The notes under the pieces are model-generated. The model had not been told where the DNA came from. It worked only from the letters and a program-made list of their open reading frames with translations, and ran no database searches. 64,000 bases of DNA from Zanthoxylum bungeanum. Its lineage: Eukaryota; Streptophyta; Magnoliopsida; Sapindales; Rutaceae. The translations under genes and the position numbers were made by a program. Shown piece after piece: positions 23,230-61,216 of this stretch (the stretch's first letter is position 1; every line of letters starts with the position of its first letter). The DNA lies in the NCBI GenBank assembly GCA_019454045.1, contig SKCR01025360.1, positions 1-64,000 of the forward strand, written 5' to 3'.

Positions 23230-23230
23230 A

Positions 23231-29090: not shown

Positions 29091-29103
29091 GCCAAGTGGA
29101 GAT
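29091..29103 (+). other. Polypurine tract of Copia-B2
   Basis: GCCAAGTGGAGAT directly precedes the 3' LTR. It has one G less than the tract in B1. Confidence 0.85.
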
Positions 29104-33187: not shown

Positions 33188-33490
33188 GACATATGAGGGC
33201 GTTAAGTATCGCCATCCCCCCATATGCCTAACTGTAGCCAACAGTGCAAATCCATGACTTTGGGGCGTTACGTATCGCCGTCCCCCAAAGCATGCCACTA
33301 TTGTCTCTGAAACTAGTGGTCTTGGGGCGTTACGTATCACCGTCCCCCAAACCACAAAACTATAACCGGGGGTGCGGATCTATGCTACCACCTAAGCTCC
33401 GAATCTAGGGTTTATGGGCGTTACGTATCGCTGTCCCATAGCCCTGCTCTAGGATATGAGGGTGTTACGTATCGCCGTCCCCTCAGTCTT
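33188..33490. repeat. Five-hairpin array with conserved loop in the Gypsy LTR
   Basis: Five units share a core close to GGGCGTTACGTATCGCCGTCCC, at about 33196, 33261, 33321, 33413 and 33457. Each core is flanked by different arms that can pair with each other: CATATG/CATATG in unit 1, CTTTGGGG/CCCCAAAG plus CATG/CATG in unit 2, GTGGT...TTGGGG/CCCCAA...ACCAC in unit 3, TATGGG/CCCATA in unit 4 and TGAGGG/CCCTCA in unit 5. The loop is conserved while stems differ. Confidence 0.85.
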
Positions 33491-36477: not shown

Positions 36478-38180
36478 TGACCAATGGTAAACACACACGT
36501 AACAGAAGATCACGTATCGCTTAAGTAGTATAAAAATATTGATCCCACGAGGACTTAATTTCTACTGTTGTTATTAATTATTGATGCTAAATGTTTACAT
36601 GTATCTAATTGATGTGAGAATGGAATGATTGCTTAATTGGTTGGTTGAATATGGATTTTCTAAATAAATAAATAAAAATATAAAATAAAGGAAATTAATA
36701 ATAAAGAAAAAAATATTTGGGGTTGTGAATCCACAAAATATTATTCTAATGATGAATTGATTCTCTCATACATGTGTAATAATTTAGTTGTTAACATGGT
36801 ACATGAAAATATGCAAAAGCCTATTCCGATGGTCATATGCAAACACCCAAAGTAATCAATAAACTATATGTCTATGTTAACCAAGAAACTCTATGTTCAT
36901 TAAGATCAAGTTCCAATTGTGGCTACCCACACCCGACATGTATATGTCTATCATGGAAAGAAATCTCCCCTAAAGTGAGATCATGAGCTATTGAATCTAA
37001 GGCCATAACCTAAAATCCCTTTTCCAAGTTCATTTTAAGTTTACCACATCAATTTTATTGGTGATCAGGCAATAAGAAGCATTAAGGTTAAGATTCAATA
37101 AACAAGCCAAAGTATCACACATAATATAATTAAATCAATTATTAAACTCGTGAATGTTGTGCTTCATTACTTCCCTAGATTAAAAATAAATGATGGGGTT
37201 AGAGGATCCACTTTTACTATTTCAAATCTAGAAATATCTCTTATTATATTTATAAATTTGCATTATATTACCAAACGACCATTTAGGTGGTATCCTGATT
37301 AAGTCATGTTTTAATTAATTCCAACTGACCATAAAGGCGGTATCCAATTAAGTCAGGTTAAAATTAATTTAATTAAGTCCAACCGACCAATAAGGCGGTA
37401 TCCAATTAAGTCAGGTTTTAAGATAATTTATATATTATAATTTAAGGGAGATTAATCTAAATTATGATAATAAAATTTCATCCTTCCCCTAGCGGAAATT
37501 AACTATAAAACATAAAAGAAAGATAAAATAAATAAACTATTATTACTACTACTAAAAATGAAAACATTACTAACTACTAAATAAAACTAAACAAACAAGA
37601 TACAGTCCTTAATCCCTTATTAGGAACCTCAGGAAAGTGTGAATTTGGAAAATGAAATTAGCTTCTATTTATAGGAAAAATTTGGCCTCGCGCGCTTTTT
37701 GCTTGAGATGTTGACTTGTGGCAGACGGCTGACGACAAACTCAATTATTGGCTCAGCATCGCGATGCTGACGTCATGATGACGCAAGTAACGATGCGTGT
37801 TGGCAAACTGAATTATTGTGCTGACGTCATGATGACGCAAGTGATGATGCGTGTCGGCAGATCAATAATTATGTTGACGTCATGATGAGGTGGTGATGAT
37901 GCACATGATAACGTGGTGATGACGCGTGTTGGCAGCATAGTAATTGATGCGCATCGTGACGCAGAGAGCTTGTGCTCGCGACGCTTGAACAGTGAATTTC
38001 CAATTTATCCCTTTTTGTATGTATTTCATCGTTTTAGCCCCAAGTTGATTCTATTGAGCCCCAAAACTTTATTTATCTACAAAACACACAAAAACACATC
38101 AAAACGTTGATAAAACATGAGAAACTAAATAAAATATTAGGTCAAATGGCAGTAAATAATGATATATTTTCCGCTCATCA
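36478..38180 (-). mobile_element. 3' LTR of Athila-C (1703 bp)
   Basis: On the minus strand it begins TGATGAGCGG at 38180 and ends CA at 36478. A polypurine tract precedes it. It contains CCTATAAATAG (37661-37672, minus) as a TATA-like box, an upstream ATCGCGAT palindrome (37759-37773), several TGACGTCA-type sequences (37768-37880) and three GGCGGTA subrepeats (37270-37400). It lies within or against the truncated Gypsy LTR. Confidence 0.87.
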
Positions 38181-38191
38181 CACCCCCAAAC
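38181..38191 (-). other. Polypurine tract of Athila-C
   Basis: GTTTGGGGGTG on the minus strand, immediately before the LTR start. The Athila-D tract at 51432-51442 is GTTTGAGGGTG. Confidence 0.85.
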
Positions 38192-39831
38192 ATAACATTT
38201 TGCTAGTCCTCGAGCAAAACAAATAAAAAAATGAAATAAACAATTAAAACTAAATTTAACTAAGCCACTTCGTAGGGATCACGATTGCATTTAGCATATG
38301 CAATAAGTCTTTAAACCCCTAGATGTCCCTAGTGGACGAGTTATAGTCTCGTGAGGGTTTACAGCGATGATACCCACCAAACGTCAATTAAATATAATCA
38401 CACAAAAGTTAAAAGAAACAAACTAAAATTCAACTAAAAAGTGAAATTCTTATCCAAGTTAGTAATTGTTTTATTTCTTTCTAAATTACCAAATAAGTAA
38501 ATTCTCATATTCTATTACCATTCTCCATATATACAATTACAAGGTATTAATCAATTCATTGTGCCCACAATATTCACAAGTTTAGTTGAAAAGAGAGTAA
38601 TATTTTTGTTCTAAAATATTATGTTGGAGTTCACACCTATTGGCAATGAAAGTTTATTTAAAACAATAAGCAAATGTTTTTTTTCAACCTTTACCGTTTG
38701 ACGCAACGATCACTGCTTACTGAGGTAAGATGTCTGATACGAAGTAAAAGCTTTATTAAACTAGTTAGCTCCATCGTTTGACGTGAACAATCACTGCTTA
38801 CTGAGGCAAGACGTCCGGTTATTAAGTAGAAACCTTTTACTGACTAACTCAAACCATACCGTTTGACGTGAAAAGTCACTGCTGGCCAGGCAAGATGCCC
38901 GGTTACTAAGTAGAAGCTTGGTTTGTTTTTATTCAATATTTTTTTAGATATATCTTCCACTGCCTTTGGGTGCTTCCTCCCATAGACCAAAGAACTAAAT
39001 ATTACAAACTTACACCCATGTTCATACGTTACCATGTATGTTGATAATACATATCAAATGAGCATATGAAGGTCAAATTTAATCAATATTATGGAGAACT
39101 CATAAATTTAAATAATTCAAAAGGAAATAAAAAAATTAATTTGTTACGAAATAGATTGAGACACGTCTCAGGAGCGCAAACTCCTTACACAGCTACAACA
39201 ATTTCTCTTAGTTAGTAAAAAATTTATGCAAAAATAACAATAAAACAAACACAATATAAAAAATCAACAAAGAAAATTAAAAACAAACTAGACAAAAATA
39301 AAAAATAAAAACACAACAAAAGGAAAAAAAGAACAAACTAAACTAGTCAACTATCCCCTCCCTCGACCTAATTGAGACATTATCCCCAATGTCTTAAAAT
39401 GAAGAAGAAGAGTTTAGAAGACATGAACCGATTAATGTACAAAAAGAAACATGCATTAACCAAAACAAAACATGTAGGAAATAACAAGATAGAGCATGTA
39501 ATAATCACTCTTAAACCTAAATTTAGCATTATCCCTAATATAATACAAAATAAATTAAAAAGAAGGGAACAACACTACCGTGCAAATCGCTTGATTTGTT
39601 AGACACCATTCATTGATGAATCCTATTTTTACTGGTAGATTGGTTTGCTTTGCTTTAAATGCCCCGTCTGTGCTTTTTCCTACAAAACTGACACACAACA
39701 TTAAAAATACTACAACATGTATACACAAAATATAAAAAATAGAAATTACAACAATAATAAAAATTGCATGGGTTGCCTCCCTCTTAGCGCTAAATTTACC
39801 GTCTTCAGCCAGACGTGACTGAAGTCCATTC
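38192..39831 (-). mobile_element. Athila-C post-pol region
   Basis: Non-coding sequence between the lost pol and the 3' LTR. It matches Athila-D on both sides of the LOG-bearing segment. The shared parts are the TTTAGCGCTA-AGGGAGGCAACCCA block (39771-39810), the region AAGACATTGGGGATAATGTC (39385-39405), a three-fold repeat with CGTTTGACG and CACTGCTTACTGAGG (38693, 38772, 38857), and a block near 38270-38370. The part corresponding to the Athila-D LOG segment is only about 270 bp here and has no ORF of note. Confidence 0.75.
38693..38920. repeat. Three-fold 80-bp repeat near the Athila-C 3' end
   Basis: Units start at about 38693, 38772 and 38857. Each has CGTTTGACG(C/T)(A/G)A, then TCACTGCTTACTGAGGCAAGA(C/T)GTC and an AAGTA(G/A)AA tail. 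Athila-D carries two inverted copies at 50728-50855. Confidence 0.8.
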
Positions 39832-42236
39832 TGTTAGGGTTGGTGCTCTGATCGCCAATTTTATTATTTATTTCCTTGTAAATACTAATGTAATATTTTA
39901 TTATGAATAAAACAAAAAGTTTCTTTTATATAACATATTCTTTAATATGGTAAAGACGTAATCGACCTTAGAATGATTAGTTATGATACTGTTGCAAAAG
40001 CGTCGCAACTGACATTGAGTTGTATCATGACATTGTCATTCTTAGACAGTTCCTGGTCAAAGTTTACACTACTTGGTCAGTAAAGTAAACCCGTTGAGAC
40101 TGGTACATGTCGTATATTGGAATCTTAGATTCCGATGGTTTCTTAATGAACCATGAGTCTTGGAGACTCGTATAGACGTGTAGGTGTTTATAGCGGATAA
40201 ACACTGAACGACTCACTGAAGATTCATAATTGATGGTACACGAACGTCAATAAGAATCTTCTCGGGTTGAGTGAGCATAATGATTCTCTGACTTGAGATA
40301 CCACTATGGATATATGAGTTATCCTTCACACTTAGATGACAGTCACATCACCGATCTATTTAGATCAGACCTCCGCCTGTTCGTTGGGTGTGAACTGATG
40401 CTCAGGATATCCTGTGTATATTAAGAAAAGATCTGTCAGTTCTGTGTATATAGTATATGTATTCATTATGGAATTAGCAATCTTTTAAATCCATGGGCTC
40501 GTGGTACACTGTAGAAATCAGTCCTAAATGTTATTAACGGATTGCTAATAGAAACGTCGACGTTATTATATCTATAGAGATTTGATGTTTGTATCTATAT
40601 ATCTGGAATAATCTGGATACCTATGACGGATGGATTATACGTATGCAGTGACCTCGACCTGCACGGTTCAGAGAGTTTATCCGTGTTCGTCATAATTTAT
40701 AGGTGGGTGAATTATGGACACGAAATTTGATTTCATGACGGATATGTCTGAACCTAGAGAGTCTCACTAATGAAATATACTCGTAGAGCACTAGGGAAAA
40801 TTTTATAAATAATACTGATTATTTATAACTCGTTTAACGGTTAAACGAAAAATACATGCAATCGCGACCTAATTGTCATTTCCGAAATTAATGTGTATTT
40901 ATATTTAATTATTGATTTTATTAAATACACATTAATTAAATATCAAATTGTGATATTTAACATATATAATTGATATATGTATTTTGATTATTTAATGTAA
41001 ATATAATACATATTTTTAAGATATTTGTATTCAATTATTTAATTATATAAATATTATATGATTAAAATAATTAAAGTAACAAATATCTTAAGTCATCATT
41101 TGCTTTATTAAAGCTTGGAAATGGCATGATACTATTGGAACACATTTAAGTTTACTTTATGTATTAGATAATAGTTATCTTTTATGTTTTGTAAATTTGG
41201 ACAAATAAAAATGAAACAAGTAAAAATCTTTATTATTTTTCTTGTGCATATTCTCGGCAATATCAAAAAATGGCATATAAATATTTGTTGTTTTCATTTT
41301 TTCTAATTTAGACAAGTTACACAAATATTCACTAAGTTAAAATTGAGAGAAAAGTGAAGAACCAAAGGAGAAAAAAGCTTAGAAACTTGGAGTTTTGTAA
41401 GTTATTTCAATTTTCTTCATCTAAGAAATTGGTTCTATGATTCCATGCTTCAACTTGTGTAGCTTAGAATTTTCTCTAATGTATAATTATGTGAATTATT
41501 GTGTTGGAAATTTGTTTGAAGGTGTTTTGTATGTATGATTAATTAATAAGCTTATCAAGAGTAATTAAGCTTATTAGATTAATTAGTAATCAAATTTGCC
41601 ATTCTAGAGTTTCTTAGCCATTCATAAATAACCTAGAATTTTTCTTGAGTTGTTTCATGATGGTGAGACTTGTTTGGTGAATTATTGGATTGATTAAAGT
41701 GTTGAATTTTATCAATTTAGTGTAAATTGTGCAATTGGTGTAATTTGTGATATTAGGGTTCTAAACCTAATCTAATTTTTGGGAATTTCATATATGTGAT
41801 GTAATTTGATGTATATATGATGTATATTAAATTTGGGATTTATTGGATTTGATCTTGATGTGTTTTGAACCAAAAATGACCAAATTACAAATCCTGGAAA
41901 TTTATGGGGCTGTTCGGCAAATACTGAAAAATTTTGGATTTGTGTTGCAATTTGTATTTTCATGTATCATACATATATAAATTATTTTGGGATTGATTTG
42001 GAATCAATTAAATATGTATTGATATTTAAGGACCAAAATGATTAAATTGTAAAATTTGGGGTAAATCGACAATTAATAGAAATTGGATTTCTTGGGTTAA
42101 AAATTCAGATTTTAAGTATTGGTTAATTAAATAAATAAGTTTATTTAATTGTTCCAAGAAAATTTTTTGAAATTAGAAAATTCTATTTTCCGCATTCCGC
42201 TCCGCTAGCCCTGTAATTCCGTATAAAATCCCAACA
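39832..42236 (+). mobile_element. Solo LTR of Copia-A (2405 bp) inside Athila-C
   Basis: It begins TGTTAGGGTTGGTGCTC and ends CCCAACA. It matches the A2 LTR (53782-56560) throughout, apart from the MITE there. The flanks CATTC (39827-39831) and CATCC (42237-42241) match at 4 of 5 positions, as expected for an old target duplication. No internal Copia sequence remains, so the two LTRs of the original element recombined. It separates the Athila-C gag-like ORF from its post-pol region. Confidence 0.85.
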
Positions 42237-43410
42237 CATCCATCAAAGAGGTTTCATCGTGGTTTTGGATGTCTGATTGAGGACAATCCCATGTGAGTTG
42301 CTTTTAAAGTGTCTCTTCCAATGATGAGGTGTCCAAAAGAATTTTCTCTCATTTAGTGTTTGTGCCACCTTCTTAAACTTTGTCGCTCCAGTGGTCTGCA
42401 AAAGAAATGAAAATAAATCAAGAGGTCTCGTATGGTGCTTGACTTTGAATGGTTGTTCCATTCTGTCAAGCTTATGGACGGTGTCCTCGATGTGTACTCC
42501 CCAATACAGTGATGTTTCTCCTGAATTCATGAGATTTTCAATGTGGTCAGACACTTGCCCTTCCCTTTATCTTTCATCTTGCTCCACTTTTTCTTCACAG
42601 ATGTATTTTAGCAATTCCTCATTTAGCTCTTCATCTTTCATCTGTGTAATGCATGCTCCATAAGTGTTGGCTTTTATCCTATGTGGTTGGTATAAATGGT
42701 TCAGTTAGCTCTTCTACTTGTTTCGCATAGTTGCAATCATTGATCAGAGAATGATCTAGAACAAATTGAGATTCGACATGATCGGGCTCCTGAACTGATA
42801 CCTCTGACTCTTGATACTGCTCAGCCTCTGTCTCGATTAAGGTGTCATCATAAAATACTTGGTACTCGATGGCTTCATCAGTGTCATCTGAAAATATTCC
42901 GTAAGGTATGTTGTTTTGGTTCTCAATTAATTGTCTCATTTGTTCTGTCAGTCTCTATATGGTTGATGCTTGTCTATGAAAGGTTTCATTAAATTCAGCT
43001 TCCCATTTATTGAACTTGTCAGCCATCCGTTTGTTGTGTGCCTCGAGCATGTCAATCAACCATTTTTCCTCTGATGGTTGTGACTCTTGATGAAGATCAT
43101 AGGTTGATGGTGGATATGATGAAGAATATGGTTCATTAAAATATGTTGGTTCTGTATATTAAGTTATTTGATAGCTCTGCCACCCTAAATTATAGTTGTA
43201 CGTGCAATGATTGCTAGGGTGGTTACCATCCATATCTCACATCTCTGAAATGGTTGAGCAAATATTGTGTTATTTTTCGTTGACATCCATGGATAGTTGT
43301 TGGGCTGGATAATAGGCCTCAGAAAACAGGACTACTGCTCCCTGATATGGGGTGTATCTTCACCTCTTAAAGCTCGTAATTCTTCCATCGCCCAATAGTG
43401 ATCCATTTCA
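42237..43410 (-). pseudogene. Gag-position ORF of Athila-C, unrecognised, broken
   Basis: Behind the primer site of Athila-C (minus strand) is a broken reading frame beginning near 43403 (MDHYWAMEELRALRG). A middle stretch at about 43190-42960 holds NLGWQSYQ and SEEKWLIDMLEAHNKRMADK, which looks like a coiled-coil linker of an Athila gag C-terminus. The open piece at 42939-42679 is acidic (SDDTDEAIEYQVFYDD). A last piece at 42554-42243 (GVHIEDTVHKLDRMEQPFKV) is unassigned. The large gag domain seen in Athila-1 (LYEAWERYKDLL) is absent. No protease, RT or integrase follows before the post-pol region, so the element is non-autonomous or internally deleted. Function unknown. Confidence 0.55.
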
Positions 43411-43517
43411 ACCACCTAGAAAAGAAAAGAAATAAATAAAAATTACAAATAAAAGTAAAGAAAATTAGATACAAGTAAAATAGATAGCTTCAAAATTAAT
43501 AACGCGAGAAAAATAAG

Positions 43518-43535
43518 TCACCGACAACGGCGCCA
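43518..43535 (-). other. Primer binding site, tRNA-Asp (Athila-C)
   Basis: It differs from the perfect tRNA-Asp complement at 1323-1340 by two bases. It lies 6 bp from the LTR end at 43542. Confidence 0.88.
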
Positions 43536-43541
43536 AAAACT

Positions 43542-44447
43542 TGACCGGTAGTAATCACACACGTAACGCAAGCGCATGTATCGCTCAAGTAGTATAAAAA
43601 TATCGATCCCACAAAGACTTAATTTCTATTGTTGTTATTAATTATTGATGCTAAATGTTTACAGGCATCTAATTGAGGTGAGAAGGGAATGATTGCTTGA
43701 TTGGTTGGTTGAATATGGATTTGCTAAATCAATAAATAAAAATATAAAACAAAAGAAATTAATAATAAAGAAAACAAACATCTAGGGTTGTGAATCCACA
43801 CAATATTATTCTAATGATGAATTGATTCTCTTATACATGTGTAATAATTCAGTTGTTAACCTGGAACACGAAAATATGCAAAAGCCTCTTCCGATGGTCA
43901 GATGCAAACACCCAAAGTAACTCAATTAACTATATGTCTATATTAACCAAGAAAATCCAAATTCATTAAGATCAAGTTCCAATTGTGGCTACCCATACCC
44001 GACAGGTATATGTCTATCCTGGAAGAAAATCTCCCCTAAAGTGAGATCGTGAGCTATTAAATCGAAGGCTGAAACCTAAAATCCCTTTTCCAAGTTAATT
44101 TTAAGTTTACCACATCAATCTTATTGGTGATCAGGCAAAAAGAAGCATTAATGTTAAGATTCAATAAACAAGCCAAAATATCACACATAATATAATTAAA
44201 TCAATTATTAAACTCGTGAATATTGTGCTTCATCACTTCCATAGATTAAAAATAAATACTGGGGTGAGGGGATCAACCTTTACTATTTCAAATCTAGAAA
44301 TCTCCCTTATTATAATACATAAATTTGCATTATATTACCAACCGACCATATAGGCGGTATCATGATTAAGTCATGTTTTAATTATTTCCATCCGACCAAA
44401 AAGGCGGTATCCAATTATGTAAGGTTAAAATTAATTTAATTAAGTCT
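43542..44447 (-). mobile_element. 5' LTR of Athila-C, truncated (906 bp left)
   Basis: It is nearly collinear with 36478-37380 of the 3' LTR. Similarity ends abruptly at TTAATTAAGTC (44437-44447), in the middle of the subrepeat region, so the promoter half is missing. The next base belongs to the gag of plus-strand Athila-D. The junction has no LTR end and no target duplication, which points to deletion or ectopic recombination. Confidence 0.83.
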
Positions 44448-45720
44448 AAGAATTGCATGAGCATAGATGTTGAAAAAGCAAGAAACCAAATACGATGCTA
44501 TGTTTCAAAGCCAATTAGCTTCTATAAAGGCACTGGAAAATCAATTGGGACAACTGGCTAATGCTCATAGTTACAGACCGCAAGGTACCCTTCCTAGCAA
44601 TACAGAACCAAATCCGAGGAACAGAGAGAATGAGCAATGTTAAGCCATCACTTTTAAAAGTGGTACTGAAATCAACAAAGATGTTGGAATCAAAGCATCT
44701 ACTGAGGAAGTTCCAAAAGAAAATAGCGAAATAAATCCACAGATGGAGGAAAAAAGGACAAATGATCAAGAAAGATTTACTCCACCTCCATCTTTTCCAC
44801 AGCGTCTCCAGAAACACAAACTGGACAAACAATTTGCTCGATTCCTGAAGATCTTCAAAAAGCTGCATATCAACATTCCATTTGAAGAAGCATTGGAACA
44901 AATGCCCAGCTATGTCAAATTCATGAAAGATATTCTATCACGAAAAAAAAGATTGTGAGATTACGAGACTATAGCATTGACAGAAGAATGCAGCACCATC
45001 ATTCAGAGGAAGCTTCCCCAAAAGTTGAAGGATCCTGGTAGTTTCACCATCCCTTGCACCATAGGATAACATTACTTCGGTAAGGCTTGTGTGATCTAGG
45101 TGCTGGTATTAACTTGATACTTTTGTCTATTTACAGGAAATTGTGAATTGGAGAAGAAAAGCCCACCTCAGTCACCCTGCAACTGGCTGACAGATCACTC
45201 ACGTTTTCAAGAGGTGTAGTGGAAGATGTATTGGTCAAAGTCGAAAAATTCATTTTCCCAGCAGATTTCATTGTCATTGACATGGAAGAATACAAAGACG
45301 TATCCATTATCCTTGGAAGACCATTCTTGGCTACAGGTCAAACCATTATTGATGTATAAAAAAGTGAACTAACCATGAGAGTGCAGGACCAAGAAGTAAC
45401 ATTCAATGTTTTCAAAGCCATGAAATTCTCGAATGACGAAAATGAGGAGGAATGTTTCAGACTTGATGTAATAGTTAGTATGATCCAGAACACAGATGCA
45501 ATGCAAATTTCCAAAGACAAACTTGAAGCATGCATCACCAACATGACTGAAAGAGAATTAGATGATGAGATTCTGGAATGTAGCAACTATCTTGATAAAG
45601 CCTTTCACTTCAGATCGACACCACAAGTGGAAAGTTTGGAACTACCAAAAAAGGAGAAAATCAAGCCCTCTATTGAAGAACCACCATAGCTGGAACTAAA
45701 GCCACTTACGAACCATCTCA
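44448..45720 (+). pseudogene. Athila-D gag C-terminus and protease, broken
   Basis: 44490-44640 encodes the gag C-terminal segment (YDAMFQSQLASIKALENQLG, then RPQGTLPSNTEPNPR). 44743-44958 encodes the linker before protease (PPPSFPQRLQKHKLDKQF, INIPFEEALEQMPSYVKFM). 45030-45350 holds the aspartic protease with the active-site region reading DLGAGIN (near 45100) and the downstream ILGRPFLATG; frame breaks near 45070 and 45140 and a stop near 45358 interrupt it. 45375-45689 is an open stretch behind protease. The N-terminal gag domain is missing because the element is cut at 44448. Similarity to Athila polyproteins is strong in every piece. Confidence 0.88.
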
Positions 45721-48540
45721 GGTATGCTTACTTGGAAAACTCTTCTGATTTACATGTGATTATTTCTTCGTCACTAACATTGGTGCAGGAAAAAAAGTTA
45801 TTGACAGTGTTACACGAGCATAAGAGAGGTATTGGCTAGACTATAGCAGACATTCGAGGCATTAGTCCATCATTTTGCATGCACAAAATCCTGATGAACG
45901 ATGAGTATAAAGCCACAGTGGAGCATCAACATAGATTGAATCCAATCATAAAAGAAGTCGTAAAGAAAGAAATTATCAAATGGTTAGATATTGGCATAAT
46001 TTACCCCATCTATGACAACAGTTGGTTGAGTCCTATGCAATGTGTACCCAAGAAAGGAGGAATGACGGTAGTCACAAATGAAAAGAACGAGTTGATTCCA
46101 ACAAGGACAGTGACTGGATGGAGAGTATGCATGGACTAGGGGAGGCAGAACAAAATAACATGGAAGGATCATTTGCCGTTACCATTCATTGACTAGATAT
46201 TTGACAGACTGGCGGGACATGAATTCTATTATTTTTTGGACGGATACTCGGGGTACAATCAGAGTGTCATCGCCCCAGAAGATCAGGAGAAAACCACTTT
46301 TACATGCCCGTTTGGTACTTTTGATTTCCACAGGATGCCATTTGGACTCTATAATGCTCCTGCCACATTTCAACGCTGCATGATGGCCATCTTTTCAGAC
46401 ATGATAGAACAAAGTATGGAGGTTTTCTTGGATGATTTTTGTGTTTGGAGATTCGTTCGACCACTGCTTGCAAAATCTGGAAAAAGTGCTACAAAGATGC
46501 GAAGATACCAACCTGGTACTCAAATGGGAAAAATACCACTTCATGGTGCATGAAGGAATTGTCATAGGACATCAGATCTCACAAAAGGGAATCGAGGTAG
46601 ACAAAGTAAAAATTGAGACAATAGAAAAACTACCTCCACCATCATCTGTCAAAGGGATCTGAAGTTTCATCAGGCATGCAGGATTTTAGGAGATTTATCA
46701 AAGACTTCTCCAAGATTGCTAAGCCTCTTTGCAATCTGCTGGAGAAAGACGTGCCTTTCAACTTCACCAAGGAATGCCACCATGCTTTTGAAATCTTGAA
46801 ATAGAAGCTGGTTTCTGCCCCCATCATAGTAGCACCAGACTGGACGCTTCCATTTGAAGTTATGTGCGATGCTAGTGATTTTATTGTAGGTGCAGTTTTG
46901 GGACAACGCAAAGCAAAAATTTTTCACACCATGTATTATGCCAGCAAAACTTTGAATGAAGCTCAACTCAACTACACAATAATTGAAAAGGAGTTGCTTG
47001 CAGTTGTGTTTGCTTTTGATAAATTCCACTCCTATTTGCTGGGTCCCAAAGTGGTGGTCTACACATATCATTTAGAAATCAAATACCTGATCGTGAAGAA
47101 AGATGCCAAGCCCAGATTGATTCGTTGGGTGCTTCTGCTGCAAGAATTTGACGTGGAGATCCGAGACAGAAAGGGGACAAAAAATTAAGTAGCTGATCAC
47201 TTGTCAAGGCTCAAAATTGGAGGAATAACTGGCAATGAACTGAGAATCAAAGAAATTTTTCCAGATGAACAGTTTTTTACCATCAAGCAGTACAAATTCC
47301 TTTGGTATGTTGACCATGTAAAATATATAGTATCGGGAAAATTTCCGTTGGAATGGACACATCTACAACGAAAGAAATTCTTCAAAGAAGTCAAGTACTA
47401 TGTCTGGGATGAGTCGTACTTATTCAAACGTTGTGCTGATCAATTGTTGATAAGTTATGTACCACAAGAGGAGGTCAATCATATATTGCCTTATTGTCAT
47501 TCATCATCATACGGCGGACACTTCAGCAGAGATAAAACTGCAGCCAAAGTCTTACAATCAGGTTTGTTCCGGCCCACCTTGTTTAAAAATGCTTACTTAT
47601 TCTTTCTTCAATATGACAGGTGCCAGAGAATGTGAAATATTTCAAGGAGAAATGAAGGACCTCTTCAAAACATTCTCGAAGTGGATATTTTTAATGTATG
47701 GGGGATTGATTTTATGGGACCCTTTGTTCCATCATTTGGAAACCTGTACATTCTGGTTGCAGTAGACTACATTTCCAAATGGGTTGAAGCAACAACACTG
47801 TCATCAAATGACTCAAAAGTGGTGATAAAAATCCTTAAAAAGAATATTTTCACTCGCTTCGGAACACATCGGGCAATTATCAGTGATGGTGGTACACACT
47901 TCTGCAACATATACTTCTATGCACTCCTATCCAAATACGGAGTTACTCATAAAGTTGCCACTACTTACCATCCATAGTCAAATGGAAAGGTTGAAGTTTC
48001 AAACAGAGAGATCAAGAGAATATTTGAGAGAACCGTTGGATCAACAAGGAGGGACTGGTCTACAAAACTGGATGACGCATTATGGGCCTACTAGACAGCT
48101 TACAAAACACCAATTAGTATATCCCCATATCGAATGGTGTTTGGGAAAAAATGCCATATATCTGTGGAGCTCGAACATAAAGTGACCTGGGCACTGAAGA
48201 AGTTAAATCTTGATCTACAAGCAGCAGGAGAGAAACAACTTCATCAACTGAACAAACTGGAGGAATTTCTTGTTCATGCTTATGAGAATACCAAACTGTA
48301 CAAAGAAAAGACCAAAAAATGGCATGATAAAAAACTAGTGCGAAGATAACTATAACCAGGGCAGTGGGTATTGTTATACAACTCAAGATTGAAAATTTTC
48401 CCTGGGAAGCTAAAATCACGGTGGTCAGGTCCATTTTTAATCACCCAAGTTTTACTATATGGAGCCATTGAGTTACATGATCCCAACTCCAATGATACAT
48501 TCAAAGTCAACAGCCAGCGTGTCAAACACTATTGGGGATA
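45721..48540 (+). pseudogene. Athila-D RT, RNase H and integrase, broken
   Basis: 45879-46139: RT N-terminus (SPMQCVPKKGGMTVV). 46236-46553: RT palm (DGYSGYNQ, RMPFGLYNAPATFQRCM) with FLDDF as the YxDD position; a frame change follows and 46432-46662 continues (FGDSFDHCLQNL). 46862-47188: RNase H ([34 protein letters not shown]). 47201-47635: integrase zinc region (HILPYCHSSSYGGHFSRDKT...CQRM). 47681-48110: integrase core with the first Asp in GIDFMGPF, the second in ISDGGTHF and the Glu in [12 protein letters not shown]; a stop sits between the last two. 48134-48349: integrase C-terminus (HDKKLVRR region), then up to about 48540 a strongly shifted end. Ty3/Gypsy order RT-RH-INT is evident. 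At least four stops or frame breaks make it inactive. Confidence 0.92.
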
Positions 48541-48726
48541 ATCATTTGGCGACAAAAAGAAAGTCTCACACTTGCAGATCCAGCCTAACGTTCGGGCAAT
48601 CATGTCTAGCTGAGGACGTTAAACTTAGCGCTACCAGGGAGGCAACCCATGTAATTTTTATATATATTGAGATTTGGTGTGTTTTATTTTTGTGTGTTTT
48701 AATTTTTCTAGGAAAAGTCACAGACA
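48541..48726 (+). other. Athila-D post-pol block, conserved part
   Basis: It includes AACTTAGCGCTACCAGGGAGGCAACCCA (family motif, here 48620-48650), which also occurs in Athila-C (39771-39810, inverted). Similarity between the two elements ends at CACAGACAGG (48717-48726) and resumes at 50251. Confidence 0.7.
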
Positions 48727-48788
48727 GGATGGAAGACGTTCTTACAAATCTTTAAAAGCATTTTTCTTCTCTCCCTAAAAACTCTCTA

Positions 48789-49172
48789 ATGAAAGTCTAC
48801 AAAACTCGCATTGAACGAATGAGACTTCTGATGATCAAAGGTATTCCTAGTGACATTCGTTGGATAATTGAAGCACGAGTCCGATTAGCATGTGAGTCAT
48901 CTGACTCTTTTATTTCATTTTTGCCTGGTTTGGGAAAAATCACATATGCTAAGAAAAGAAGAGCTAAACGATTAGGTGTTTGTTATAAATGTGCATGCAT
49001 GACATGCAATACTCCTTGTCGTTCTTTAGGAATGATGTCTGATAACCACGAAGATAAAATTAAATTCATTTGGGATGGCATGAGTAAGGAGTCTTTAGAT
49101 GACATATCATTGACTCTTGAGACACATCTCAGTGGATATGTGTTTCACGGGATTCACATGTTACATACATAG
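48789..49172 (+). CDS. Unknown cysteine-containing ORF in Athila-D (127 aa)
   Basis: An uninterrupted frame of 127 codons in the position where some Athila elements carry an env-like gene. The protein is basic and has no membrane segment that I can see. Features are DIRWIIEARVRLA (about residues 20-33), a KKRRAKR basic stretch (about 58-64), and a cluster CYKCACMTCNTPC (about 67-79) that could bind zinc. It ends LETHLSGYVFHGIHMLHT. After the stop the same frame could run on to about 49280 with one further stop, so the original protein may have been longer. It is absent from Athila-C. I do not recognise the family. It may be an own gene of this Athila lineage or part of a captured host transcript together with the LOG-like ORF. 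Whether it is expressed is unknown. Confidence 0.5.
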   Translation: MKVYKTRIERMRLLMIKGIPSDIRWIIEARVRLACESSDSFISFLPGLGKITYAKKRRAKRLGVCYKCACMTCNTPCRSLGMMSDNHEDKIKFIWDGMSKESLDDISLTLETHLSGYVFHGIHMLHT

Positions 49173-49542
49173 TTTCGAAAAGAAAGACAACAATTGAGTC
49201 TCGGGAATCTGACTTTAAAAGACCATTTTGCCAATTTATAAGAAAATTTGATGGGAAGCTTGACCTTGACACATAGATGTCATTCAAGCCGTTACATCCT
49301 GTACATATTATTATCTCTTTATCTTTCTCTAATAATTGCGATTTATTTTGTTATTTTCTTTTACTTTCGCCGACAGGATCCAGACTTTTTGACTTTCACG
49401 ATTTATTTTATTGTGTAGCTAACAATTGTCATTTGGAAGGTACTAGTGCTATTATTACTCACCCTTTTCAGGATCTATAAATTCAGCTCATCACTGCCCT
49501 CTTGTAGATATCCAGATTTGAGAAAGAAATATTTAAAAAAAA

Positions 49543-50136
49543 ATGGAAGCAACTTCAAGGAGACGAGTTGTTAATATCCGTGTGTTTTGCGGTACTAGTT
49601 CTAGTTCTAAACCAGAATTCAGTGAGGAAAAATAAGAATTGGGTAGAGTCATAGCTGAAATGAATATGCACTTAGTATATGGCGATGACAATCTTTGACT
49701 AACAAGGTACGTTTCTAGGGCTGTACAGGAATGACGTAGTCAAGTTTTGGGAATCATCCCAAAATCTTTGGCGGAGGCGAATCTTATCGGACAATCAAAC
49801 AGAGAGGAATACGTCGTGCTAGGTATGTCCGAATGACTTGTTGAAATGATTAATTGTGCTGATGCATTTATTGCTTTGCCAGGTGGCTTGGGCACAATGG
49901 AGGATATTTTCATAGTATTATCTTGGGCGAACTTGAACATACACCAGAAACCAATTAGACTGTTTAATGTTGATGGATTTTTTGACTTTCTTTTTGTGTT
50001 TCTTGAAGATGTCAGGAGAAATGGGTTCCTTTCAAAACCTGTAAAAGATTTCCTCTTCACTGTCAGAACATCCAATGATTTAATTGACCAACTCTTAGCC
50101 TTTAAACACAAATTGACCCTATCCTTTCCAAGATAA
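49543..50136 (+). pseudogene. LOG-like: LOG-like cytokinin riboside 5'-monophosphate phosphoribohydrolase, captured copy
   Basis: LOG enzymes release free cytokinin base and ribose 5-phosphate from the nucleotide, the last step in making active cytokinin, in cytosol and nucleus. One reading frame of 198 codons (LOG proteins are about 200-220 aa) starts at ATG 49543 and ends at TAA 50136. It has no frame shift and no intron. Matching landmarks: IRVFCGTSSS (residues 12-21), ELGRVIAEMNMHLVYG (32-47), VLGIIPKSL (68-76), CADAFIALPGGLGTMED (105-121) and the NVDGFFDFL region. Four in-frame stops (codons 31, 52, 64, 98) inactivate it. The glycine-rich turn after VYG reads GDDNL, PGGxGTxxE ends in Asp, and the Arg expected at codon 98 is a stop. 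It lies between integrase and 3' LTR of Athila-D, same strand, and is absent from Athila-C. Host LOG genes have several introns, so a copy made from mRNA is likely. Confidence 0.88.
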
Positions 50137-50250
50137 ACTAAAATGATAATGATCGTGGTAAGAAACGTCGGATAAATCTAGATCTTAACCTTTAATTTTC
50201 TGTACAATTACACGCTAACCAGGTACTGTTTACTAAACTCTTTTTTTTTT

Positions 50251-51431
50251 TAAGACACTGGGATAATGTCTCAATTAGGTTTGCGGGAGGGGAATAGTTG
50301 ACTAGTATTTTTTTTTTTTCTTGTGTTTTTTTTGTCAAAAATTCAAAAAAAAATTTAAAAAAAATCGTAAAAAATTTGTGTTTTTTATGTTTTAAATTTG
50401 ACTAATCAGGTGAAATTATGTTTGAGATAGATGTGTAAGGAATTTCCACTTCTGATACGTATCTCAACCTATTTCGTAACTAGTTAATTTTTATTTATTT
50501 ATATTTGAATTATTTAAATTCGTTAATTCTTTATAATACTAACTAAATTGGATCTTCATATGCTCAGTTGACAGGTATTATCAACATGCATAGTAACATA
50601 CGAACATGGTCGTACATGAAAAGTTTGTAATATTCAGTACTCTAGTTTATTAGAGGAAGCATCTAAAAGCGATGGATTAAAAAAAATGTGTATATAATAA
50701 TTAACCATGCTTTTACGTAGTAATTAGATATCTTGCCTCAGTAAGCAGTGATTGTTCGCGTCAAACGGAAAAGCCTGAGTTAATAATAATAAAGTTTCTA
50801 TTTAGTAACTGGACATCTTACCTAAGTAAGCAATGATTTTTGCATCAAACGGTAGAACCTTTAAACATATAAGATCCGAGTAATTAAGTCTGTAGGGGTG
50901 TCTTAACACCTAATGCCCTAAATCCAAGTGGTTTGGGAGTCACTGGCCCAAAGCTCGCTACATGGATTAAAGATGTTATAAAAAAATCATTGCCAAAAAG
51001 GTGTGAATTCTGATATAACTTTAGCACAAAAATATTACTTTCTTTTCAACAACACTTATGAATATTGGGGGCACAATGAGTTGATTAATACCTTGTTAGT
51101 TGTGCATATGGAGAATTGTAAAAATAATTGGAGAATTTACTTAGTAATTTAGAAAGAAAGAAAACAATTATTAACTTTGATAAGAATTTCATTTGTTTAG
51201 TCACTAACTTGTTTTGTGTGTTTGATTTTACATTTGATTGACGTTTGTGGGTATCGTCGCTGTAAGCCCTCTCGAGACTACAACTCGTCCACTAGGGACA
51301 CCTAGAGGTTTAAAGGCTTGTTGCATACGCTAAATGTAACTGTGATCCCTACGAAAATGGCTTAGTTTAATTTAAAAGTTGTTTATTGTAATTTATTTTG
51401 TTGTTTTGCTATAGGACTAGAAAAATGTTAG
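50251..51431 (+). other. Athila-D region before the 3' LTR
   Basis: Non-coding and AT-rich, collinear with 38192-39400 of Athila-C (inverted). It contains homopolymer runs (50310-50390), two copies of the CACTGCTTACTGAGG-type repeat (50728-50770 and 50812-50855, inverted relative to 38693-38920), and the block CTCGTCCACTAGGGACACCTAGAGG (about 51285) shared with Athila-C. No ORF. Confidence 0.7.
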
Positions 51432-51442
51432 GTTTGAGGGTG
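51432..51442 (+). other. Polypurine tract of Athila-D
   Basis: GTTTGAGGGTG directly before the LTR start TGATAAGCGG. It differs by one base from the Athila-C tract. Confidence 0.82.
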
Positions 51443-53118
51443 TGATAAGCGGAAAATATATCAATATTTACCGCCCTTTTTACTTAATTTTTTTGTATAG
51501 TTTCTCGGGTATTGTGAATATTTTTATGTGTTTTGTGTTATTTTGCAGATAAATAAAGTTTTGAAATTCACCGGAATCGAATCGGGGCTAAAATGACAAA
51601 ATTCGGATCAAAAAGCTCAAAATGGGAAATTAACTACTCACGCGTCACGACGTGAATACATCTTTGCGTCGCGATGCGCCACAATCATGCAGCCTGCTGA
51701 CACACGTCATAGATTGCATCAGAATGATGTCATCACTGTATCTCGCGTCGCGACACAAACCCTTAACGCGTCGTGACACCGAAGCAATAATTCAGCTAAC
51801 GACACTTGTACAGTACTTAGCACACGTCGCGACATGCATAAGTTTTACGTCGCGACGCGTGGCATTTTTTATGCCAATAAATTGAGGCCTGATTCAAAAG
51901 GAAAATTCATACTTTCTTTTAGGGATTTCCTTAAGAATATTAAGAAGATAGTATCTTGCTTGTTTATTTACATCTTTCTTGTATTTAATTTTTATTTTAA
52001 GCAATAAATCTTTCTTTGTTTTACTTTAAAGTATGAGTAGGTAACTTCTTTCTGCTGGGGTCAAAGGTACAGCTTTTATTACTATAATTTAGATTAATCT
52101 CCCTTAGTTATAATATATAAACTATCTTAAAACATGACTTGATGGGATACCGCCTTTATGGTCGGTTGGACTTAATTAAATTGATTTTAACCTGACTTTA
52201 TTGGATACCGCTTTTAAGGTCAGTTGGTAATGTCACGCAGATTTATATATTATAATAAGAGATATTTCTAAATTACAAGTAATAAAAGTGGATCCCCTAA
52301 CCCCAATATTTTATTTTATTATTTTATTTTACCTTTTTAATTTTCAAGTTAATTTTATAATGCTTTCTTTATTTATGTCTTTAATAATCATATATATGTG
52401 TTGTAACTAAATACCGTATCTAGGGTTGTGATGAATTCCAATATCACCGGTTTATAAGTTGGTTAGTTTTTGCCTTGGGTAATATATTGGTTTATTTATT
52501 GAATCATAATCTTAATGCTTCTTATTAACTGGCCACTAATAAGATTGATTTGATAAACTTAAAATGAACTTGACAAAGGGATTTTAGGTTTCAACCGTAG
52601 ACTCAATAGCTTACGATTTCTCCTTAGGGAAGGTGTCCCTTAGGTAGATTTCCTTACAGTATAGACATATACTTGTCGTGCGGGGATACCATAATCGGAA
52701 CTTAATCTTAATGAATTCAGGTAACTTGGTTAACATAGACATATGATTAATAGGGTTACTTTGGGTATTTGCATCTGACCATCGACATAGGCTTTTGCAT
52801 ATTTTCGTGTTCCAGGTTAATAAACAGATATATTACAAAAAAAAAATAATCACTTCATATTTAAAAGATTTTGGAAGGATTCACAACATTAGATAGCTTT
52901 ATAATATTGATTTTTCCTTTAATTCACTTTCACATTATTTTAATTACTTGTCTTCAGTAAACATCACCAATCAAACAACAATCAATCAATTAGATACTCG
53001 TAGAATTTTAACTTCAATCAATTAATAGCATAAGTTTTAAGTCCTCGTGGGATCGATACATTTGTACTACTTGAGTGATATGTGCGCTTGCGTTACGTGT
53101 GTGTTTATACACCGATCA
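51443..53118 (+). mobile_element. 3' LTR of Athila-D (1676 bp)
   Basis: It begins TGATAAGCGG and ends ACCGATCA at 53118. It is homologous to the Athila-C LTR in opposite orientation. Between 51640 and 51870 it carries six TCGCGA- or TCACGA-type sequences such as TTGCGTCGCGATGCGCC and ACGTCGCGACGCGT, followed by a TATA-like segment (near 51880). Two GGCGGTA-type subrepeats (inverted) lie at 52147-52230. The downstream flank (53119 onward) is an inverted Gypsy LTR fragment. Confidence 0.88.
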
Positions 53119-56576: not shown

Positions 56577-57321
56577 GAGTCTGATTATAGGCCTATGATA
56601 TGATTAACCCTTAAAATTAAATGTTTAATCTATTATTTGCTTTATACATGCTTGTGTTATTTAATTTGATTAAATATTGCGTATAATATCTTTCGCGGAA
56701 TATCCCTAATTAATAACGTTTAAAAGTAATATGTATTGGATGTATATTTCTTGGTCCATCTTGTCAATACGATTTATGGATATTTGTTCTATGACTGCAT
56801 CCGAGAACGTGACAAAGTAGTGAAGGTGTAGCCGATAGAAATTTATCTATACCGGATGTATATGTGATACTAGGTAAATTCAAGCGAAAACGAAAATTCT
56901 GAACGTACCAAAGCTGTCAGAACTACGCAATTATCTTGAATTTATCATTGACAAGTTTAAACTTGGTATGCCTCCTTGTGAATGTGCCAAAGCTGTCACA
57001 ACGAGAAACCACATGGATCAAATGTTAGGAGTCACTAGTGAGTGATTAACAATGAGTTGTCTACCTAATGAATATACGTAGGCGAGAACGTGCCAAAGTT
57101 GTGAGCTGAAATATATTCATGGGATCCACTTTTCCCTATTGTATTTAATTTGATTAATTTTTTGTTTACATTCTGTTTGGGGATTACAGTATTGCATGTA
57201 ATAGTGGGAGAGGCATTTTTAGATTAAAAAATCATGATCTATTTATGCTTTGTTTATTTTATATTATATGAAACTATTTTGTCTGCTAACCATTTTTCGC
57301 TATCTATATGATAGATTTACG
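56577..57321 (+). other. 5' leader of Copia-A2 with four spaced repeats
   Basis: The motif (G)AACGTGCCAAAGCTGTCACA occurs at about 56803 (weak), 56901, 56980 and 57084. Their order and approximate spacing match the A1 leader (18743-19000). The leader ends at the gag ATG at 57322. Confidence 0.78.
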
Positions 57322-58158
57322 ATGGCGGCACCTACTACTAATCCTCTTGCTCGTATAATTGATACGAACAAGCTTCAAGGCGTAAAAAACTTTGCAGATT
57401 GGGACTTGGATATAAGGATTATGCTTGGGTCTGAGAAACTAGAATATGTGTTGGAAGGTCCGTTTCCACTTGCCATATCAGATGATGCAACACAAGAGGA
57501 ACATGAGACTCTCCAGAGGTGGAGAGATGATGATAGAAGGGTCAAATCATACATTCTCACTTCCTTGGCACCGGAGCTTAAAAGGCAATACTTTGGTTTG
57601 CCTGATGCATATACTATGATGATGCGACCTATATGGTCTTTTATGAACCAAGAACAGGTCTCGGTTCATAAAATTTCAATGGAATTATTTCATTCAAAAC
57701 TTGAAGAGGGACAAGTTGTGAGCCCTCATGTGCTCCATCTGATTGATCTGATCAAACAGTTGAGGAACTATAATTTCCCTTTGAATGACACTTTGGGACG
57801 AAATGTCATACCTAGATCACTCCCAACATCATATCGCCAATTTATGATGTATTTCAATATGAATGGGATTAGCTGTTCTTATCAAGAGTTGCATAAGATG
57901 CTACAAACTGCGGATGAGGATTTGAGGAAGGGAGTTCCGACTCCCCCTCATAAACCCACTGCTCTTCATGTTTCCTCCCAATCTAAACATAAAGGGAAGA
58001 AGAAGAAAGGAAAGAAAAATAAGGGTTCGAATGTTCCACCACAGGGTAAGATGGCTAAACCCAAAAGAGCTGCCGAAGATAAATTCCACCATTGCAGCAA
58101 GATTGACCATTGGAAGAGGAATTATCCTGACTTCCTGGCCCATATCAGAAAGGAATGA
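57322..58158 (+). pseudogene. Copia-A2 gag, full-length frame, zinc knuckle damaged
   Basis: An uninterrupted frame of 278 codons from ATG 57322; the frame stays open upstream to 57250, but the leader repeats and comparison with A1 support 57322. It contains DTNKLQGVKNFADWDLDIRI (about residues 14-33), the typical Copia gag N-terminal region, and a basic linker (KGKKKKGKKNKG). The zinc knuckle reads FHHCSKIDHWKRNY, so the first and last Cys are Phe and Tyr. It should still form a Gag fold, but RNA binding through the knuckle is probably lost. It is followed by a broken pol. Labelled pseudogene because of the knuckle and the dead element around it. Confidence 0.85.
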
Positions 58159-59239
58159 GCATCTACTTCAGGTACATTTATTTTTCATGTTATTTATATC
58201 TTCATAGCTTGGGAAGCCATGACATCTAGTTGGATTTTAGATTATTCTTATCCTATTCACATTTGTAATTCGTTGTAGGTGCTGAAGGAAAGTAAAAAGC
58301 TAAATTCCAGAGAGATGCAGTTGCATTTTGGGAGTGGTGACTCTCTGGATGCGGTTGTAGTGGGAGTATGTGAGATCCCCTTGTCCAGTGGGAGTCTTTT
58401 GTTGCACGACTGCTATTTTGTTGCGGGATGTGTAGCGAATATTATATCACTTTTTGTATTAGATACAGAAGGATATCGTGTAAATATTAAGAAATGTTCC
58501 TTATATTTATATGATAGAAATAATGTTCAGATCCTTGAATGTCCAAATGAGCACGGTCATTACATATTGCATACTTCTCGAGATATTTTGAATACTAGGA
58601 TTAATAAACATAAATTATCTGAAATAAATAATATTGAACTTTGGCATACGAGGTTAGGTCATATAGGCATTAGACGTTTAACCCAGTTGGTTATGAATGA
58701 TTTGATTCATGATCTCACCATTGAACCTTATAGAATGGTTTGATTCATGATCTTACCATTGAACCTTATCCAACCTGTGAATCTTGTATTCAAGTTAAAA
58801 TGACCAAAGCCCCATTTTCAGGTGTAGGACACCGAGCCACTGACTTATTGGATCTCGTACATTCTGTATATGGTCCTATGAGTTAGACTGCTCACAGTGG
58901 TTTTTCATACTTTGTTACTTTTACCGATGACATTTCATTGTATGGTTATATTTATTTGATGAGACATAAATCGAAAACCTTTGGAAAGTTCAAAGAATTC
59001 TGTAATGAAGTAGAAAACAAACTGGTAAATATATTAAATGTCTTCGATCTGATCGAGACGGTGAATATATGAGTAGTTCGTTCATTGATTATTTGAAGGA
59101 GAATGGGATTCTCACTCAATATACTCCTCCGAGTACTCCACAGCACAATGGAGTATCCAAAAGGAGAAATCAGACTTTATTGGATATGGTCCGATCTATG
59201 CTGACTTTTACATATTTGCCATATTATTTATAGGGATAT
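58159..59239 (+). pseudogene. Copia-A2 protease and integrase, cut by Copia-B3
   Basis: 58279-58743 encodes protease-side sequence (FGSGDSLDAVVVGVCEIPLS, CVANIISLFVLDTEGYRV) and the integrase N-terminus (LWHTRLGHIGIRRL, with the two zinc His). A 38-bp tandem duplication (58695-58732 and 58733-58770) then shifts the frame. The other frame continues with ESCIQVKMTKAPFSGVGHRA and the core; the first catalytic Asp is lost (VHSVYGPM). The NGVSK-like end of the core lies near 59155. At 59240 the sequence is interrupted by the LTR of Copia-B3; the rest of A2 must lie beyond the window. Confidence 0.88.
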
Positions 59240-61201
59240 TGTTGGATTTTCTAGGTCAAACCAAGATCAATTAAGCATATAAACGTGTGACTACACCAAA
59301 GTAAAGTAGCGGAAATACTCACTTTGATCGGATTTTGCGATGCGAAGAACACAAAAATTTCTCCATGGATGATTTGGCCAAGCCTACTTTTGTGCTCCTT
59401 GTGTTGATCTTCAAGCTCCAAGCTTTAAGTGTTGATTCCATGCTCATAGATGGGTTTCCTTATCACCTTTGAATGACTCATTGGATGTGCTAGCATCTTG
59501 AAAAAGTTGCAACAAATCTTCCATTTGCTTTCTTTAACTCTCGACCAAGGAGAGAATTTTGAGAGAAAATTGGCACCATTGCCGTGAGGAAGAGGGAAAG
59601 AAGATGAAGTTGTGTTGTGTGTTTTGATTTCAAAAATCAATACAATAATTCAATTTCCAAAATTGGTACAAGGCATTAATGCCTCCAACAACTCACATCA
59701 ACAAAAAGTGACTTGCATCACATCACTCAAAGTTGATGTGACTTCCATCACAAAAGGTGACTGATGATGTGACGTGTGATGTGACTTGTGGGCCCCACTT
59801 GATTCAAAATGCAAGTGGTCTCACAAACACTCCCGGGCTTGGATTCGCTAATTCTGAATTAATGAATTTTCCGTGCGACGTAATTAAATCAAATTTAATT
59901 AAATAATTATGCCTAGCAAAATTACTATTCACGTCGCTAGCGAATTAATTCTAAATTAACTCGTTCGCCCGAATAAAAATATATTTTTAATTCCGCGTCG
60001 AAATCTAATTTCGTTTAATATATCGAATATATATTTTATCGATTAATTCCAAATTAATCGTTCTCTCTCTTTAAATAGTATTTTATCCCAGATAAAATAT
60101 CTCTGCAATTAATCCTAGATTAATTCTCTCTCTCTCTTATAATTAATCCCAGATTAATTATGTTCGAGTCATACATCATCAGTGAATCTTCGAGAAGCGA
60201 CCCATGAGATCTCTGGATATGTTGGCAGTAAATCCGGTCGTCGAACTATCCGAACACGTACGTACCTAGTACTACATTTTTACCGATTTACAAGACATGG
60301 TTGGCTTCTAGCAAAGCACCGTGCCTACCCAATTCTCCAGAAATATTCTTAAAGGAATATGTAATCTATATCAGGTGTAGTATACGTAGTATTGCGTATT
60401 GCGATCCAGTATCGGATGTCAAATGCTAGGCCTGGGGCTGGAATTGTGTCTGCCCCGTACGAAGCACATATCAGATCTCTGGTAACTAGTCTCTATAATC
60501 AGATAAGCATGACCTAGTCATATTATCCCGATAGCTGCAGCATACAAGAGTACTAGTTACGTATCCTACGTGACCATCATCTCCATATGACTGAAGTGAT
60601 ACTTCCATCTTGACATCACACCCAATACACTACGATTCTCAATATACCTAGAAGAGGCGTACACAGAACCTGTTAAAGCCCTGGACGACCAAAACCAAAG
60701 TATATTGATTGTCGCAATTATTAGCGATGCAAGTCTCATGTTACGACCAATTACACTTACCCTGATTCGGACTTCCATAGACACATAGTCATACTACCAA
60801 TGGTATTCCGAGGGGTCTATCCAGAGCGAAGCTGTTCCCATACTATCGGTAAACACAAACTCCTATTACACTTGCATGTGTATACAATACCCAAATATAT
60901 GAGAACTATGTTGTTATGCTCCCATAACACGCACAAGTGCAATACTAGTCTATTCCGCATTATCGATGTCCAGTCTCGATAATACTACGACTAGGGATAT
61001 TTAATGATTAAACCTTAGTGGATTAATACTGTCTCATATCTTATTAATCCTGAACTAATCATATGGACTTTTATCATTTATGTATCTTGGTAATCCAATT
61101 ACAAATGATAAAAGAGCAATTTCCTTTGTCACATAGTTAATTTGTACAACAACACCATGTTCTGTACAAATAGTGATGCTATGGGTCATAATTGTCCAAC
61201 A
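59240..61201 (-). mobile_element. 3' LTR of Copia-B3 (1962 bp)
   Basis: On the minus strand it begins TGTTGGACAATT at 61201 and ends CCAACA at 59240. It is homologous to the B1 and B2 LTRs and includes the palindrome chain (59865-60165). Left flank GATAT (59235-59239) is one half of the target duplication in Copia-A2; the other half is outside the window. Confidence 0.9.
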
Positions 61202-61216
61202 ATCTCCCACTTGGCC
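61202..61216 (-). other. Polypurine tract of Copia-B3
   Basis: GGCCAAGTGGGAGAT on the minus strand, directly before the LTR start; identical in its core to the B1 tract. Confidence 0.88.

Follow-up and report, generated by a model that had tools for sequence, protein, structure and literature searches.

Intronless LOG and NABP-like genes in a probable Athila-type retrotransposon family of Zanthoxylum bungeanum

Two Athila-like elements described by Steinbauerova et al. in 2011 are said to be similar to LOGL4. LOG enzymes activate cytokinin, which section 12 of PMC9289625 gives as the role of this family, and the same section reports a YgdH (LOG) domain in LTR elements of Citrus and Populus, with reference to Steinbauerova 2011. 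The Athila lineage, including Athila, Calypso, Cyclops and Diaspora, carries an extra sense ORF between pol and the 3' LTR (PMC7264820 and PMC6317226, in the sections drawn on here). For most extra genes of plant LTR elements, according to the corresponding sections of PMC9289625 and PMC7264820, neither the origin nor the use is known.

Here we describe an element with two such genes in a stretch of 64,000 nucleotides of Zanthoxylum bungeanum DNA, hereafter the window. Most probably, the window contains a decayed copy, truncated at its 5' end, of an Athila-type family with many copies, which carries in sense orientation an NABP gene (182 aa) and then an intronless LOG gene (217 aa). An earlier note, made from the letters of the window alone, had placed a LOG frame inside an Athila element and knew of no described Athila carrying a hormone gene. 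The latter statement is contradicted in substance by the YgdH domain of the Citrus and Populus elements (PMC9289625, section 12).

The window element and its LOG gene

The features of the element, all on the plus strand, are as follows.

44450..53118, plus strand: 5'-truncated Athila-type LTR retrotransposon copy with LOG (self-comparison, domain matches, junction sequence)
46197..46550, plus strand: reverse transcriptase piece, PF00078 (E 3.6e-11)
46805..47185, plus strand: RNase H, PF17917 and PF17919 (E 6.3e-33)
47189..48577, plus strand: integrase, PF17921 zinc-binding piece and PF00665 core; one frame, with stops
48729..49276, plus strand: broken NABP-like gene (Viral_NABP/Carla_C4 module); two stops, a frameshift, full-length match to the protein of locus L001 (see below)
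49465..49471 and 49476..49482, plus strand: TTTTCAG (splice-acceptor-like) and TATAAAT (TATA-like), upstream of LOG
49543..50195, plus strand: broken intronless LOG gene; stops, a frameshift, PF03641 and PDB 2a33 matches, C-terminus of its relatives
50196..51442, plus strand: 3' internal region; from about 50192-50216 it is common to a minus-strand relative that has no LOG, and it closes with a PPT-like TTTGAGGGTG
51443..53118, plus strand: 3' LTR, starting with TGATAAGCGG and ending with GATCA

Reverse transcriptase, RNase H and integrase follow one another in the order of Athila and other Ty3/gypsy elements; the zinc-binding piece of the integrase lies in 47189-47632, slightly under the cut-off for PF17921, and its core in 47636-47974. 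We class the element provisionally as Athila-type, judging by gene order, a single RNase H, a PBS-like stretch and motifs that we take to be those of Athila, rather than by a reverse transcriptase tree. The additional RNase H that marks Tat elements (PMC6317226, in the section consulted) was not found by a Pfam scan of the window pieces and of L001, whose frame from the end of RNase H through the integrase gave only H2C2 and rve.

As the copy is truncated at its 5' side, which the earlier note had overlooked, it does not display the LTR pair and target duplication of a complete insertion. At about 44450 it adjoins an inverted partial LTR (43541-44449) belonging to a relative on the minus strand. 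Its right end lies in a repeat (53119 onward) with two further partial copies in the window, at 33027-33331 and 35295-35731 (minus strand); the target's left half was not located.

The minus-strand relative (36478-44449) has LTRs near 36478-38180 and 43541-44449, which are about 91% identical over 905 bp, a PBS-like TTTTTGGCGCCGTTGTCGG after the right LTR, and a short internal region without reverse transcriptase, NABP or LOG matches. It looks like a shortened element that would be non-autonomous, and it is interrupted by a copia-type LTR at 39831-42236. Its alignment to the LOG element runs up to about 48725 and resumes from about 50192, which places both NABP and LOG within the gap, where about 0.2-0.3 kb of other sequence replaces them. 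Elsewhere in the window, 1-8285, 21254-30964 and 59412-64000 hold several long repeats that occur in either orientation and are 82-94% identical, from another nested retroelement family, and copia-type gag and integrase frames lie at 57250-58743 (plus strand) and 16103-18182 (minus strand).

The LOG frame itself bore out the earlier reading in several respects. Positions 49543-50136 (plus strand) encode a LOG-type protein without an intron and with four in-frame stops; masked at these stops, the frame matches PDB 2a33 (At2g37210) with E 2.3e-38, and its match to PF03641 (E 3.1e-29) spans the protein, as in LOG phosphoribohydrolases. Self-comparison and domain matches also agree with the note in placing LOG downstream of the integrase and upstream of the 3' LTR, in the same orientation. 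On the other hand, the claim that no indel occurs over 594 bp did not survive. A tblastn comparison with relatives detects the conserved LOG C-terminus in another frame, at about 50109-50192, so that the last residues of the 49543-50136 frame are an out-of-frame reading. The frame shifts near 50106-50118, and the LOG gene truly ends at 50195, with TAA at 50193-50195. This tail frame has one further stop, the fifth, and ends in KKRR...LDLNL. In the PGGxGTxxE motif the last E is replaced by D; the motif being lost here and kept in the family at large, we regard the window gene as a broken member of the LOG phosphoribohydrolases.

The note had also contrasted LOG with pol of the same element, in which it saw several frame changes. 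The reverse transcriptase part does change frame between its pieces, but the contrast does not hold for the region from RNase H to integrase (47096-48577), which matches in one frame throughout, with 7 stops over 494 codons; LOG, with 5 stops plus a frameshift over about 217 codons, is thus not better kept than 3' pol. The locus nearest to the window LOG is L058 (dN 0.166, dS 0.332). Changes private to the window copy, counted where at least four of five relatives agree, amount to 22 missense and 2 nonsense in 144 columns. The ratio of 2/22, against 0.039-0.054 expected, gives no sign of a constraint of its own in these small numbers, and the changes look like unconstrained decay. The suggestion that the frame was kept for some time after capture was accordingly rejected for this copy, which is dead and makes no LOG.

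The NABP-like gene

Between the integrase and LOG lies a second extra gene, which the earlier note had missed. Its stop-free piece at 48756-49169 scores 29.7 bits against PF05515 (Viral_NABP), for which the cut-off is 23, and 19.3 against Carla_C4, under the cut-off of 20.9. At E 0.01, 124 relatives came out of a database search, and many of the 120 listed are 182 aa long. The organisms named among those listed are plants, namely Xanthoceras sorbifolium (a cluster of 47), Orobanche gracilis (a cluster of 109) and Orobanche minor; no virus is named among them, most of the entries being nameless. Scans of viral_contigs gave no DNA relatives.

One explanation of the profile match is that it reflects a mere common zinc-finger and basic motif, with no kinship to carlaviruses. 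The matches span only part of the profile (113-202 of 227) with moderate E-values, Carla_C4 stays under its cut-off for both the window piece and L001, and the NABP profile has no meaningful relative in the PDB, where it drew two entries only, at E 0.19 and 0.21. A predicted structure (pLDDT 52, pTM 0.31) was unusable. On the other hand, the gathering score of Viral_NABP is exceeded by P0121 (29.6) and L001 (34.2) as well as by the window piece, P0121 also reaches the cut-off of Carla_C4, and Viral_NABP is matched by 22 and Carla_C4 by 21 of the 23 aligned members (E of 0.01 or better). We consider it unlikely that a common motif is all there is, and treat the gene as a putative NABP of the carlavirus type.

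L001, on contig DAIEQH010000041.1, comes from another source. It has an open integrase frame and then an NABP gene that is likewise open, arranged as in the window, and the remaining 983 bp contain no LOG match; the whole record that holds it gave no LOG match either, which shows little. Over 124 codons, the NABP genes of the window and L001 differ by dN 0.21 and dS 1.18. The contig, with its genes of a plant retrotransposon, is filed under a Candidatus Nomurabacteria metagenome-assembled genome, where it is likely a contamination.

Copies in the host genome, selection and the type of LOG

The host genome searched (3.96 Gb, 51,709 contigs) contains the window. A LOG query (P0004) returned 69,800 first-look candidates and an NABP query 45,481, which are candidates and not copy counts; 150 were scored for each. 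All 150 scored LOG matches are intronless and cover at least 211 of 217 residues at 87-98% identity, and 47 of them are stop-free. Host LOG genes generally contain introns. Full-length frames on short database contigs were dropped as evidence on this point because contigs of about 0.9-1.5 kb can hold host-type LOG in full length as well (for example P0256 and P0319), so that the absence of introns rests on the genome loci. A search with the pattern PGGYGTLEE for host LOG genes gave five places in this genome, all of them element-type LOG variants, so that it supplied no intron-bearing control from this genome and identified no host donor gene.

In the 30 best LOG-centred loci, NABP lies upstream on the same strand in every case, and an integrase was present within the 1.5 kb examined in 27 (all but L008, L013 and L017). 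Conversely, LOG sequence lies downstream in all of the 30 best NABP-centred loci, its end being lost in L040 and L041 and its interior shortened in L037 and L046, and 29 have an integrase (all but L041). The two sets overlap at four places and comprise 56 distinct places with NABP and LOG in the same order, which supports the earlier note in taking an intronless LOG to be part of the mobile element. These 60 loci are the best matches and not a random sample, and therefore lean towards young, well-kept copies. In L048 and L052, LOG contains short out-of-frame blocks between in-frame sequence, as if two frameshifts compensate each other.

A complete insertion (LTR pair and target duplication) is found on contig C730, where LTRs bounded by TG...CA lie at 133025-134264 and 142443-143854, with a PBS-like TTTTTGGCGCCGTTGCCGGGGA after the 5' LTR, GGTTGGGGGGTG before the 3' LTR and a TATCT target duplication on both flanks. 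Besides gaps, the LTR blocks differ at 3 of 769 and at 3 of 510 aligned columns (6 mismatches in about 1,279 bp), and integrase, NABP and LOG all lie between them. A second LTR pair, on C17646 (55193-56533 and 65323-66743), shows 36 mismatches and many gaps in an alignment of 1,471 columns, with partially matching flanks (GTTGA/GTTAC); on C18715 the 3' LTR is present and no matching 5' LTR was found in the stretch examined.

The window by itself could have been taken for a single LOG retro-pseudogene in one Athila copy, without wider meaning, since this copy is broken and the related minus-strand element has no LOG. The gene order and spacing common to other copies, and the enclosure of LOG by a complete insertion with its target duplication, leave this reading practically no credit, and the common borders already refute it. 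An isolated, stand-alone LOG insertion was excluded for the same reason, as other copies have the same gene order and borders.

Selection was estimated by NG86 counts on stop-free copies of two subfamilies. Between them (19 versus 3 copies), LOG gave dN 0.175, dS 1.340 and dN/dS 0.131; bootstrapping the codons of 12 among the 57 pairs gave a range of 0.078-0.207. This estimate is based on one main split and on the best-scoring loci only. When broken copies are included, LOG pairs with dS > 0.8 have a dN/dS of 0.195. For NABP, the same subfamilies (6 versus 3 copies) gave dN 0.125, dS 0.555 and dN/dS 0.226, and L001 compared with 29 stop-free copies gave 0.243. Among close copies (dS < 0.05), the ratios are high, 0.73 for LOG and a near-neutral 1.15 for NABP. 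Both genes thus show purifying selection between subfamilies, with looser change among close copies, which is the pattern of genes that source elements retain and that are freed from constraint in dead copies.

The high ratios among close copies could also suggest that LOG and NABP are passengers, multiplying with the element without doing anything for it, and captured genes in LTR elements are indeed often passengers (PMC7264820, in the section consulted). Over longer distances, however, dN/dS falls to 0.13 for LOG and 0.23-0.24 for NABP, a length of 217 aa is constant in 61 of the 120 listed LOG relatives, and PGGxGTxxE is kept in 109 of these 120. A passenger role is accordingly quite improbable, and genes retained by the source elements are the reading that we follow. 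Between L037-L058 and L002-L031, synonymous divergence is 1.34 for LOG and 0.56 for NABP in the same groups, an inequality that may point to exchange of the 3' module between elements.

In a tree of 34 rows, 24 element-type LOG sequences are split from the sampled host enzymes (nine of LOG1/LOG3 type and At5g11950) by a branch of 0.72 with support of 100/100. The host LOG1/LOG3-type enzymes have PF03641 and PGGxGTxxE in common with the element LOG, but not its tail. An LxLxL motif, which we take to be EAR-like, occurs within the last nine residues of 66 of the 91 listed relatives that reach 205 aa and of 39 of 45 genome copies, and a basic run in 74 of the 91; both are found in 0 of 117 host entries. 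Such a tail, together with the long branch to the sampled host LOGs, would suit a nuclear protein that is no longer a cytokinin enzyme. The catalytic motif argues against this, as PGGxGTxxE is kept in 36 of 45 genome copies (absent in nine) and in nearly all listed relatives, as counted above, and we find it doubtful that enzyme function has been given up. We retain the reading of the element LOG as a putative cytokinin-activating enzyme with an added tail.

Part of what is annotated as LOG may belong to such elements or descend from them. The listed LOG relatives (P0036-P0120) include proteins under Populus LOGL10 names as well as proteins present in several copies in Xanthoceras, Reevesia and Paulownia, and in the tree their sampled members group with the element sequences; since Populus relatives annotated as LOGL10 do so, element-type LOG may be counted as host LOG.

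Upstream of LOG, the block noted in the window is conserved, TTTTCAG in 50 and TATAAAT in 59 of 60 loci (four places counted twice, window included), which suggests that LOG has its own promoter or splice site. A gene transcribed from its own promoter in Grande is named in the reference list of PMC7264820.

A possible mechanism and comparison with known systems

Taken together, the common gene order, the complete insertion, the dN/dS of 0.13 and the distinct LOG type with its tail suggest that a successful retrotransposon family maintains LOG as one of its genes, next to one for a carlavirus-type protein. Since LOG lacks introns, we infer that it was captured as an intronless mRNA copy. NABP was probably gained first and LOG later; the integrase and NABP of L001, from another source and without LOG in the 983 bp that follow, were counted in favor of the family as described at the outset.

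The proposed course of events is as follows. An ancestral element that already had NABP would have gained LOG later, as an mRNA copy. LOG would probably be expressed apart from gag-pol, either through the conserved TATA-like box or by splicing to TTTTCAG. NABP would dampen silencing or alter transcription; NABP-type virus proteins have been described as suppressors of silencing, and the one encoded by chrysanthemum virus B as a hyperplasia-inducing transcription factor (PMC12172455, in the passages drawn on). LOG would increase both active cytokinin and cell division at sites that let the element multiply, and both genes might therefore favor dividing, permissive cells. We hypothesize that the benefit to the element likely lies in such helper functions of NABP and LOG.

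A bolder version is that the retrotransposon lineage has assembled a host-manipulation module, consisting of a carlavirus-type protein that acts against silencing and on host transcription and a cytokinin-activating enzyme with a nuclear or corepressor-type tail. We put this forward tentatively, as a rather unlikely possibility. If true, the module would drive cells of the meristem, or those that form the germline, to divide and become permissive, and the family would be a plant counterpart of a growth-gene retrovirus, with the genes kept long-term rather than picked up in a rare transduction. As the relatives carry a virus-type NABP and LOG, the element may influence both host defence and host growth. 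Whether a retrotransposon can profit from plant-hormone activation and a virus-type protein becomes a testable question here, because the two extra genes have recognisable homologues, occur together and bear signs of selection.

The LOG-type domain in LTR elements is known, while the NABP-LOG pairing, its common order, the selection estimate and the tail are new here, the open-licence literature searched containing no report of them in print. The same literature gave none on LOGL4 together with a retrotransposon or on Viral_NABP/Carla_C4 together with a retrotransposon, and the consulted parts of PMC9289625 and PMC3136472 contain nothing on NABP in retrotransposons.

Several known systems are close to this family, each in a different respect. 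The 2011 elements are reportedly Athila-like with LOG at the 3' side, as here. The Citrus and Populus elements have a LOG-type domain in plant Gypsy-type elements, as in this family, but section 12 of PMC9289625 describes for them no NABP, selection estimate or C-terminal tail, whereas here LOG is paired with NABP in 56 distinct places examined. As in the Athila lineage, in the sections of PMC7264820 and PMC6317226 cited above, we find the gene order, the position and sense of the extra genes, and no second RNase H; the extra genes themselves are NABP and LOG instead of the env-like or Athila ORF-1 types. Gypsy elements of Phalaenopsis carry an AlkB-type RNA demethylase, which also occurs in Betaflexiviridae, and thus resemble the present family in having a host- or virus-type enzyme as an additional ORF; they differ in the gene, in the lineage and in that the activity was tested in vitro (PMC9289625, in part). 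Finally, the cysteine-rich or NABP proteins of carlaviruses and their kin, as far as the passages of PMC12172455 go, have the same basic stretch followed by a zinc-finger-like cysteine pattern, with Viral_NABP and Carla_C4, as the element NABP, which, unlike them, is encoded by a retrotransposon and has been multiplied in plant genomes.
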